Shown: positions 57,575 to 61,308 of the stretch, in pieces
Position numbering within the stretch: the first letter of the stretch is position 1
How the letters are laid out: each line of letters opens with the position of its first letter
Notes under the pieces: model-generated
Told to the model about the DNA's origin: nothing
What the model saw: only the letters and a program-made list of their open reading frames with translations
Database searches by the model: none
Program-made: the position numbers and the translations under genes
DNA from: an uncultured SAR86 cluster bacterium
Lineage (GTDB): Bacteria; Pseudomonadota; Gammaproteobacteria; Magnimaribacterales; D2472
Length of the DNA: 64,000 nt
NCBI GenBank assembly: GCA_902591565.1
Contig: CACJBC010000004.1
Span: forward strand, 1-64,000
Direction: 5' to 3'

Positions 57575-57590
57575 TGGCACCTAAATTGCA
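57575..57590 (+). promoter_or_regulatory. Sigma-54 (-24/-12) type promoter upstream of the TorF-PII-amtB-1 unit
   Basis: TGGCAC-C-TAAA-TTGCA matches the sigma-54 consensus TGGCACG-N4-TTGCW with correct spacing, ~44 nt upstream of the ATG. Confidence 0.75.
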
Positions 57591-57633: not shown

Positions 57634-58221
57634 ATGAAAAAATTGTTTTTACTTGTAGGGATCATATCTTTACCAACTTTTGCAGGAGTTAGTGCAAATG
57701 TTAGTTTTGCCTCAGATTATATCTGGAGAGGAATGACACAAACTGACGGCCCAGCAATGTCAGGTGGTTTTGATTATGAATCAGAAAGTGGATTCTACGC
57801 AGGGATCTGGGGTTCAAATGTAAACTTTAGTGATGGTGCGGGTAGTGAGTTAGATTACTATTTTGGATATGCTTTTGATTTTGGTTCAATTGGAGTAGAT
57901 CTAGGATATGTTGCATTTGATTACCCAGAAGCAACTGATTTAGATTTTGAAGAGGTAGTTCTAGGTTTATCTTATGGTGACGTAGGTCTTACTTTTGCAC
58001 TTGGTCAAGACAGTGCTCCAGACTATACAGAAGTTTCTTATGCATTAGGTGCTGTAGGTTTTGCTTATGGTCAGTACGACGATTATGGTGACAACTTAGT
58101 TATTTCATATGGATTCTCATGCGGATCATATGATTGTGGTTTAGCTTACACTGATTTCTCAGCAGATGCGGCTGGCGCAGATGATGATTATTTAGTGTTT
58201 TCAATTTCAGCAAGTCTTTAA
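57634..58221 (+). CDS. TorF family putative porin
   Basis: Signal peptide; VSANVSFASDYIWRGMTQTDGPAMSGGFDYESESGFYAGIWGSNVNF typical of TIGR02001-type proteins. Confidence 0.88.
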   Translation: MKKLFLLVGIISLPTFAGVSANVSFASDYIWRGMTQTDGPAMSGGFDYESESGFYAGIWGSNVNFSDGAGSELDYYFGYAFDFGSIGVDLGYVAFDYPEATDLDFEEVVLGLSYGDVGLTFALGQDSAPDYTEVSYALGAVGFAYGQYDDYGDNLVISYGFSCGSYDCGLAYTDFSADAAGADDDYLVFSISASL

Positions 58222-58228
58222 TTCTTAA

Positions 58229-58585
<357 letters not shown>

Positions 58586-58595
58586 GGAGTAAAAG

Positions 58596-59837
58596 ATGGA
58601 AGAAATTGCATTTGCTTTAGATACATTTTACGCAGTAATGGCAGGAGCTCTTGTTATGTTTATGGCAGCTGGTTTTACCATGCTTGAAGCAGGACTTGTA
58701 CAAAAGAAAGATGTATCAGAAATTGTAACGAAAAATATAGGCTTATACTCAATAGCTTGTATTATGTACTTAGCTTGTGGCTTTGTGATTATGTACCCTG
58801 GTTCATATATTATTGAAGGAGTTTTACCGTCAATTCTTGGAACAAGTTCATTTGGGTTATCTACTTCATTACCTAATGAAGATATAGGTATGCCATATGG
58901 TATGGATTATTCACAACAAGCTGACTTCTTTTTTCAAGTAGTTTTTGTTGCTACGGCAATGTCGATAGTATCAGGAGCTGTTGCTGGAAGAATGAAACTT
59001 ATACCTTTCTACTTATTTGCTATCGTATTAACAGGTTTGATATATCCTATTCAAGGCGCATGGAATTGGGGTGGTGGTTTCTTAAGCGGAACTCTCGGCT
59101 ACTCTGACTATGCAGGATCAGGAACAGTGCATTTATGTGGTGCAGCTGCAGCATTAGCAGTTGTAACGGTTTTAGGACCAAGAAATGGTAAGTATGCTCC
59201 TGATGGTACATCTTTACCTATGCCTGGGTCTAATATACCAATGGCTGCATTAGGTGTATGGATTCTTTGGTTAGGTTGGTTTGGATTCAATGGCGGATCT
59301 GAGTTAATTGTAAGCAACGAAGCATCTGCTATTGCTGTTAGTCAGGTATTTATGAATACAAACATGGCTGCATGTGGTGGTGTTGTTGCTGCAATCTTAG
59401 TTAGCTTAATTAGAACAGGTAAAATGGATGTAACAATGGCTATGAATGGAGCTATTGCTGGTCTAGTAGCAATCACAGCTGGTCCAAGTGCCCCATCTGG
59501 TGGTGCTGCAATCTTAATTGGAGCATTAGGTGGTGTCTTAGTATATTTCTCAATCTTATTTTTTGACAATGTACTAAAACTTGATGATCCAGTAGGCGCT
59601 ATTTCAGCTCATGGTACTGTTGGTATTCTAGGTGTTATGGTTGTTCCATTTACATCTGATGCTTCATTCTTCGCACAATTCATTGGTGTAATTGCAATTG
59701 CTGGATTTACGTTTATTGCTAGTTTGTTAACAATCTATGCAATTAACGCTGTATTGCCAATTAGAGCAAGTGATGACGAACAGTATGCTGGTCTTGATAG
59801 TTCTGAGATAGGAGTTGAAGCTTATCCAGAATTTTAA
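58596..59837 (+). CDS. amtB: Ammonium transporter (paralog 1)
   Basis: FTMLEAGLVQKKDV, GAWNWGGGFLSG, DYAGSGTVHLCGAAAALA, LGWFGFNGGSEL, DDPVGAISAHGTVGILGVM. Confidence 0.95.
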   Translation: MEEIAFALDTFYAVMAGALVMFMAAGFTMLEAGLVQKKDVSEIVTKNIGLYSIACIMYLACGFVIMYPGSYIIEGVLPSILGTSSFGLSTSLPNEDIGMPYGMDYSQQADFFFQVVFVATAMSIVSGAVAGRMKLIPFYLFAIVLTGLIYPIQGAWNWGGGFLSGTLGYSDYAGSGTVHLCGAAAALAVVTVLGPRNGKYAPDGTSLPMPGSNIPMAALGVWILWLGWFGFNGGSELIVSNEASAIAVSQVFMNTNMAACGGVVAAILVSLIRTGKMDVTMAMNGAIAGLVAITAGPSAPSGGAAILIGALGGVLVYFSILFFDNVLKLDDPVGAISAHGTVGILGVMVVPFTSDASFFAQFIGVIAIAGFTFIASLLTIYAINAVLPIRASDDEQYAGLDSSEIGVEAYPEF

Positions 59838-59841
59838 GTTT

Positions 59842-59931
59842 ATGAGTTAGGTTCATATCTCCCCCTTTTATACCTAACTTATAAAAACACGAAAAGAGCC
59901 GTTATCTCCCCCTTTAACGGCTCTTTTTTTT
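59842..59931 (+). ncRNA. Tandem stem-loops with identical C-rich loop motifs; the second doubles as a Rho-independent terminator
   Basis: SL1 AGTTAGGT (59845-59852)/ACCTAACT (59872-59879), loop TCATATCTCCCCCTTTTAT; SL2 AAAAGAGCCGTTA (59892-59904)/TAACGGCTCTTTT (59915-59927), loop TCTCCCCCTT, followed by a T-tract. Confidence 0.7.
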
Positions 59932-59964
59932 GCACCCATTTTAAACATTTTTATTAAATATACA

Positions 59965-59980
59965 TGGCATATAAATTGCA
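59965..59980 (+). promoter_or_regulatory. Sigma-54 (-24/-12) type promoter upstream of amtB paralog 2
   Basis: TGGCAT-A-TAAA-TTGCA, same spacing and core as 57575-57590; flanked by inverted repeat ATACATG/CATGTAT. Confidence 0.7.
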
Positions 59981-60024
59981 TGTATGAATTGAATGTAATA
60001 AATATATATATTTTTTAGGGAGAT

Positions 60025-61308
60025 ATGATGAATAAGATATATTTAATCTTTGGCAGCCTTTTGGCTACTCAATTTGTTCAGGGAGATGAAATTAATTCTG
60101 GTGATGCTGCTTGGATTTTAACATCTACTGCATTGGTTCTTTTGATGACATTACCTGGACTAGCATTGTTTTATGGTGGATTAGTTCGATCAAAAAATGT
60201 TCTTTCTGTATTGATGCAATGTTTTACAATTGCTTGTTTAATGTCAGTTTGTTGGGTTGTATATGGTTACAGCTTAGCTTTTAAGGGTGATGGTTTATTT
60301 ATTGGTGATCTTAGCGCACTATTTTTAAATGGTGTAGAAAGAGACTCGATTTCAGGAACACTACCTGAGTCAGTATTTATAACTTTCCAAATGACTTTTG
60401 CAATTATAACTCCAGCTCTTGTAGTAGGTGCATTTGCAGAAAGAATGAAATTTACTGCTATGTGTATTTTTTCAGTTGCATGGTTTACTTTTGTATATCT
60501 TCCAGCATGTCATATGGTTTGGGGCGGTGGATATCTAGGCAGCATAGGTGTTATTGATTTTGCAGGCGGTCTTGTTGTGCACGCTACATGTGGAATTGGA
60601 GCGCTAGTAGCAGCAATCTACTTAGGCCAAAGAAATGGATTCATGAAATCACCAATGCCACCGCATAACAGAACAATGGTCATGATTGGTGCATCAATGC
60701 TATGGGTTGGCTGGTTTGGTTTTAATGCTGGTAGTGCTGTTGCTGCAGACAGTTCAGCAGGTATGGCTATGCTAGTAACTCATATTAGTGCTGCAACAGG
60801 TGCATTAACTTGGATGGCCATTGAATGGATTAAATCAGGTAAAGCAACAATGATTGGTATAGCTACAGGTATGGTAGCTGGTTTAGCTACTATCACACCA
60901 GCTTCTGGATCTGTTGGTCCGGCTGGTGCATTATTAATTGGATTCTTAGCAGGATTAGTATGTTTTTATTCCACTCAGGCAGTTAAATCTTACTTCAAAA
61001 TTGATGATTCGCTAGATGTATTTCCTGTTCATGGTGTCGGCGGTATTCTTGGAATTATTATGATTGCCTTTGTTGGTAATCCTGATGGTTTTCTTGGATC
61101 AGGAGCTGCTGGTATTTCTGAAGATGGTGCAATTGCACAGTTAATGATTCAACTTCAAGGAGTTATAGTTATCTCAGCTTATACAGCCATAGTTACATAC
61201 GTAATTCTAAAATTAGTTAGCACAGTAACTGATCTTAGAGCATCAGAAGAAGATGAGGATGTTGGTTTAGATATGAGTGAACATAACGAACAGGGTTATA
61301 GTTTATAA
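60025..61308 (+). CDS. amtB: Ammonium transporter (paralog 2)
   Basis: GLALFYGGLVRSKNVLSVLMQ, GGYLGSIGVIDFAGGLVVHATCGIGAL, VGWFGFNAGSA, FPVHGVGGILGI; signal-like N-terminus. Confidence 0.95.
   Translation: MMNKIYLIFGSLLATQFVQGDEINSGDAAWILTSTALVLLMTLPGLALFYGGLVRSKNVLSVLMQCFTIACLMSVCWVVYGYSLAFKGDGLFIGDLSALFLNGVERDSISGTLPESVFITFQMTFAIITPALVVGAFAERMKFTAMCIFSVAWFTFVYLPACHMVWGGGYLGSIGVIDFAGGLVVHATCGIGALVAAIYLGQRNGFMKSPMPPHNRTMVMIGASMLWVGWFGFNAGSAVAADSSAGMAMLVTHISAATGALTWMAIEWIKSGKATMIGIATGMVAGLATITPASGSVGPAGALLIGFLAGLVCFYSTQAVKSYFKIDDSLDVFPVHGVGGILGIIMIAFVGNPDGFLGSGAAGISEDGAIAQLMIQLQGVIVISAYTAIVTYVILKLVSTVTDLRASEEDEDVGLDMSEHNEQGYSL

Follow-up and report, generated by a model that had tools for sequence, protein, structure and literature searches.

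The window analyzed here, a 64,000-nt stretch of DNA from an uncultured SAR86 cluster bacterium, belongs to an AT-rich genome of 1.07 Mb that is 83% complete. Two successive units are of interest, and all features described below lie on its forward (+) strand. The first unit is preceded by a -24/-12 (σ54-type) promoter, TGGCACCTAAATTGC (57575..57589), an exact match to the pattern and functional presumably on that basis. It opens with the gene for a TorF-family putative porin (57634..58221; TIGR02001, 87.8 bits, above cut-off), which is followed by glnK, encoding a P-II nitrogen regulator (58247..58585; the top matches were P-II families, under their curated cut-offs), and by amtB-1 (58596..59837), a marine-subtype ammonium transporter gene (TIGR03644, 557.7 bits, above cut-off). 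glnK has no recognizable Shine-Dalgarno (SD) sequence (58229-58249); a C-run, TTCCCCCCTTTATATTATG, occupies the SD position, and 3-6 C's are retained there in most relatives. The second unit has its own -24/-12 promoter, TGGCATATAAATTGC (59965..59979), again an exact pattern match, upstream of amtB-2 (60025..61308), which encodes an ordinary AmtB-type ammonium transporter (TIGR00836, 441 bits, above cut-off). In a comparison of relatives this promoter was found to be kept in the window's genus, g1, in g2 and g4, and in several g9 genomes, and an RpoN gene is present in the window's genome. Transcription of amtB-2 would be expected to start near 59991, giving a 5'UTR of about 34-37 nt. The short leader ATATATATATTTTTAAGGGAGATAT (59991-60028) is nearly invariant in genus g1, unlike the spacer 5' to the promoter, which varies freely. 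The two transporters had been described in an earlier note on this DNA as paralogs, but their identity is only about 31% and they are of different kinds, a marine-subtype Amt and an ordinary AmtB.

Immediately 3' to amtB-1 there are two predicted hairpins. The 3'UTR element that they form runs from the amtB-1 stop codon to the U-run of hairpin 2 and shares the terminator of the mRNA; the relatives are alike in this respect. Hairpin 1 (59839..59885) has a 14-bp stem, 59839-59852 with 59872-59885, and a 19-nt loop (59853-59871) that contains a C-rich pairing sequence. Hairpin 2 and its U-run (59891..59931) constitute a putative intrinsic terminator, of which the fold is predicted and the T-run is seen directly; the terminator scan admits loops of at most 8 nt, and hairpin 2 was therefore not listed by it. 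A hairpin with a T-run was present at this place in nearly all the relatives read. The loop 1 bases had been taken to be single-stranded, and the predicted fold agrees: 59853-59871 form the loop and the C-run is almost wholly unpaired, with an unpaired probability of 0.60-0.70 at 59855-59857.

The loop segment TCATATCTCCC (59853..59863) is, as originally reported, an exact 11-nt reverse complement of GGGAGATATGA at 60018..60028, and within the window the 11-mer occurs exactly at these two places only. Its target site is open in the predicted fold (unpaired probability about 0.9 over 60018-60025), and pairing of the two is predicted to yield a net -13 to -16 kcal/mol after both sites are opened. 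The match was said to cover both the SD and the start codon of amtB-2. The true start is probably the second ATG, at 60028, since it aligns with the start conserved in relatives (ATAATGAATAAG) and gives a normal SD spacing. Pairing would thus cover the SD and the spacer and extend just one base into the likely start codon. Among the genomes read, only the window and a close relative, G011, have the match at its full 11-nt length.

A second pairing site in loop 2 had also been proposed, with 8 nt (59903-59910) directed at the same target. The loop of hairpin 2 (59905-59914) does contain CTCCCCC, and about 6 nt of the proposed site are free, but T59903 and A59904 belong to the stem. The window alone was found to have CTCCCCC in this loop (in G011 the loop is ATCCCCCC), and loop 2 was rejected as a conserved second site, its sequence varying freely among relatives. 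One subclade of genus g1, g1b, has ACCCAAAA in loop 2, which might base-pair with TTTTGGG in the ribosome binding site (RBS); at p about 0.02, this may be chance. A genome-wide repeat was ruled out, as TCTCCCCCTTT was found just twice in the genome, in loops 1 and 2. The exact doubled loop motif was likewise discarded as a family marker; a scan of contigs gave 13 records, from unrelated groups by title.

The strength of the match was then judged against the rest of the genome, using 1.05 of the 1.07 Mb, assembled from stretches, and simple ORF calling. With up to four starts considered per gene, the pairing of loop 1 with amtB-2 (-18.7 kcal/mol) ranked 3rd of 1041 predicted genes, two other start sites scoring better. 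When the comparison was confined to same-strand neighbors in which a 3' hairpin is predicted for the upstream gene, amtB-1/amtB-2 was 1st of 130 pairs and the next reached -14.2; in a second genome the best of 176 neighbor pairs reached only -14.6. The shuffled-loop control favored the pairing, the value being attained by 0.02% of shuffles (p=0.0002), or by 0.3% when CTCCCCC was retained and the flanks alone were shuffled (p=0.003). Against strong-SD RBSs only, the single-genome p was about 0.02, and given that value a single genome alone would not be convincing. Several TonB-receptor-like genes have GGGGG-type SDs that rank high among matches to the C-rich loop (L142-L241 of G079; G000 contigs).

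Of 108 family genomes searched for amtB-1, 90 had a match, each possibly amtB-1 or amtB-2, and the amtB-1 3' regions were read in some 75 genomes. Hairpin 1 with an exposed C-rich run was found in g1, g2, g3, g4, g6, g8 and most of g9, although in g3 the C-rich loop is mostly in a second hairpin. The stem sequences are unrelated between genera, and the C-run is unpaired in nearly all predicted folds. Among the 3' regions read, hairpin 1 was absent from g5, g7, g10 and two g9 genomes (G094 and G097); g5, G094 and G097 retain amtB-2. Conversely, amtB-2 was not found in 18 g9 assemblies that keep the loop, 17 of them as TGCTCCCCC, and g3 likewise keeps a C-rich loop with no amtB-2 detected; some of these amtB-2 absences may be assembly gaps. 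On a quick single-gene tree of the amtB-1 protein, 3 changes account for the distribution of the C-loop and at least 14 for that of an adjacent amtB-2. The distribution of amtB-2 is patchy across the family, and close pairs such as G083 and G093 differ. In one g9 genome (G072:C1), amtB-1 is present twice on one strand, at a distance of about 4 kb, and both copies have the same hairpin 1 (L098, L102).

Since the loop is retained in genomes where no amtB-2 was found, amtB-2 cannot be the sole reason for its existence. Attempts to find targets other than amtB-2 and glnK2 did not establish any. In G003, G006 and G008, a stretch of 10-11 bp in the RBS of a glutamate-dehydrogenase-like gene (GDH) is complementary to the loop, and matched pairs exceeded swapped ones (p=0.013), but this gene was picked post hoc and its SD is G-rich also in genera lacking the hairpin (upstream regions L303-L332). 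In a search of g9 for other conserved targets of GGGGGAGCA, 30 loci were read; these were either the hairpin again or, for the most part, coding sequence, and no start site recurred among them.

When loops and RBSs were compared between genera, both proved to differ, and in several clades they differed together. The loop and RBS are ATCTCCC and GGGAGAT in g1, CCTATATGTAA and TTACATATAGG in G031 of g4 (an 11-bp match), CTCCCTATT and AATAGGGAG in g6 (9-bp), and, in g9, AGTGCTCC and GGAGCACT in G083 and AAAATGCTCC and GGAGCATTTT in G092. In g2 the match is in two parts of 7 and 9 bp, TTACTCC and TTAAACTAA against GGAGTAA and TTAGTTTAA. A glnK2-amtB-2 unit follows in g6 and in two g9 genomes (G076 and G090), and there the loop matches the RBS of the first gene, glnK2. 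From these sequences it appears that, where a σ54-driven amtB-2 or glnK2-amtB-2 unit follows, the loop tends to match the RBS of its first gene.

This tendency was evaluated by swapping loops among eight clades. Own loop-RBS pairs gave a summed energy of -100.4, against a mean of -80.5 (sd 5.7) for swapped pairs (p=0.00064, an approximate value, since clade blocks share some ancestry, and one obtained with loop boundaries set by hand from the folds). Fixed 22-nt segments centered on the loop gave p=0.0005, and shifted targets and other 3'UTR segments, used as controls in the eight-clade test, gave null results. The own loop was strictly the best of the eight in g1a, g2, g4 and g9 with amtB-2, and second or third in g6 and in g9 with glnK2; it was poor in g1b and g8, and the match in g8 was no better than chance. 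In g1b (G001, G004, G014 and G016) the RBS keeps GGGAGATAT and the C-run remains in the loop, but the loop 1 match has been lost, only 4 bp being left. The co-variation that the earlier note had suggested looking for is therefore present between genera but fails in g1b and g8. That note had also counted independent change of loop and RBS in relatives against its own proposal, and the loss of loop 1 complementarity in g1b is a change of this kind. Across the eight clades a conserved, exposed seed complementary to the target RBS was found, with g1b and g8 as exceptions, and the compensatory divergence between genera supports the loop-RBS pairing as a selected feature.

Our preferred reading, which we hold with somewhat better than even confidence, is that the tail of the amtB-1 mRNA is a base-pairing regulatory RNA that represses the next nitrogen-uptake unit through its RBS. 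The 3' end of the porin-glnK-amtB-1 mRNA (about 59838-59931, with both hairpins) would act as an sRNA processed from the 3'UTR or, still uncleaved, as the tail of the message. Ribosome entry on the gene that opens the following σ54-driven unit, which is amtB-2 in the window and glnK2 in some relatives, would be blocked by pairing of its RBS with the C-rich loop of hairpin 1. Occlusion of the SD has been established for sRNAs with UCCC motifs (PMC4132741), and by analogy it would be the natural effect of such pairing. The tail hairpin is thus probably an undescribed RNA switch that limits translation of the second gene. Under nitrogen limitation both promoters would be turned on, and the first transcript would reduce or postpone translation from the second, so that amtB-1 comes first and amtB-2 is held back; this incoherent feed-forward logic is likely because both promoters are of the σ54 type. 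What the data show is the sequence, its predicted structure, its conservation and the co-variation of loop and RBS between genera; that such an RNA builds up in the cell, works chiefly in trans and is a repressor is our inference. Counting against this reading are the failures in g1b and g8, the modest single-genome p against strong SDs, the loops kept where amtB-2 was not found, the retention of amtB-2 without the hairpin in g5, G094 and G097, and the failure to detect Hfq or ProQ as helpers.

The earlier note had left the choice between a cis and a trans route undecided. Of the two, trans fits better, for two reasons. A conserved -24/-12 promoter of its own serves amtB-2 and lies beyond a terminator that is conserved as well, so that cis read-through is unlikely as the main route. 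In addition, the loop is kept in the 18 g9 assemblies without a found amtB-2, which is consistent with an RNA that acts in trans and has additional targets. An explanation confined to cis would have loop 1 fold back, whenever the terminator is read through, on the amtB-2 RBS in the same molecule, leaving amtB-2 to be translated only from its own σ54 transcript. In its favor, one strand carries both sites at a distance of about 155 nt, and it is invariably the opening gene of the following unit that is matched. With a terminator hairpin and T-run between them, an independent promoter for amtB-2, and loops that persist where amtB-2 was not found, we consider this cis-masking improbable.

Of about the same low probability, or very slightly higher, is the explanation that the C-rich loop is maintained by something else, perhaps interaction with other mRNAs that have G-rich SDs (for example that of GDH), binding of a protein that recognizes C-rich RNA, or mRNA stability, any CUCCC loop being able to fit an SD. 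Its conservation in g3 and in the 18 g9 genomes, the C-run that g1b holds with a mere 4-bp match, and the GDH matches all agree with this. It accounts for the C-run, however, and not for the flanks, which track the RBS of the neighboring gene: the match outside CUCC/GGAG co-varies by clade, and the swap test is significant. Simple coincidence, in which an ordinary stabilizing 3' hairpin and terminator happen to carry a loop complementary to an SD, draws on the ease with which C-rich loops complement SDs, on the modest single-genome probability against strong SDs and on the two start sites that score better. The first rank among neighbor pairs and the cross-clade result (p=0.0006) with its null controls make it very improbable. 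The regulatory tail remains the reading that we prefer.

The protein partners of such an RNA were also considered. Hfq, which the Hfq-dependent sRNAs of enterobacteria need in the organism, was detected in 0 of 108 genomes of the window's family, including 0 of 19 that are near-complete, whereas control genomes were positive; ProQ was detected in none of 18 genomes of the genus. RNase E/G was present in 19 of 19 near-complete family genomes, so that processing of the tail is possible. It was not found in the window's assembly, where its absence is probably an assembly gap, although several other g1 members also had no match.

Little is known of post-transcriptional control in bacteria with tiny genomes, and the candidate RNA, in a family with no detected Hfq, has a comparative signature open to checking against further genomes and public metatranscriptomes. 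If the proposal is true, a 3'UTR RNA sets the order between two ammonium transporters, uptake systems needed for growth at low ammonium. A broader version is more doubtful than otherwise, and we offer it tentatively: an Hfq- and ProQ-independent 3'UTR RNA of a streamlined lineage would co-evolve with the RBS of the adjoining nitrogen-uptake unit, have a wider regulon (with glutamate dehydrogenase as a candidate), and, through base pairing alone, place two types of ammonium transporter in a hierarchy.

A search of the literature on SAR86 and on amtB sRNAs found nothing on this element, and in Rfam 15 no family reached its gathering score for the amtB-1 tail, the only hit in the window being a tRNA elsewhere. 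A weak covariance match to the ES056 sRNA (RF02752) at 59835-59931 (26.4 bits, E=0.011; gathering score 43) is most likely a chance match of two hairpins. Three described sRNAs are comparable. GlnZ, from the glnA 3'UTR of Enterobacteriaceae, represses sucA and regulates in response to nitrogen (PMC9731577). Like the amtB-1 tail, it is a 3'UTR RNA of a nitrogen-assimilation mRNA; it differs in its parent, glnA, and its target, sucA, any sequence relation having been compared through Rfam only. NarS, derived from the narK 3'UTR of Salmonella, is released by RNase E and targets nirC, an internal cistron of nirBDC-cysG (PMC9438474, review). As proposed for the amtB-1 tail, an RNA from the 3'UTR of a transporter mRNA for a nitrogen compound there represses another transporter of the same pathway. 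The genes and organisms are different, however, the parent being narK rather than an ammonium transporter gene, and the target here would be the first gene of the adjacent unit, in a family where no Hfq was found. LhrC of Listeria monocytogenes has CUCCC...UUUU repeats in a stem-loop and in the terminator loop that bind the SD and block translation, and Hfq is not needed (PMC4132741). The C-rich motif in a stem-loop and terminator loop that fits an SD site is shared with the amtB-1 tail. In contrast, LhrC is a free-standing sRNA gene in five copies with cell-envelope targets, whereas the element described here is an mRNA 3' end, its motif is confined to the two loops of one 3'UTR, and its loop sequence follows the RBS of the neighboring gene. 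The amtB-1 tail is thus nearest to NarS in logic and nearest to LhrC in chemistry and belongs to neither; it appears to be a putative variant of the 3'UTR-derived SD-binding RNAs.
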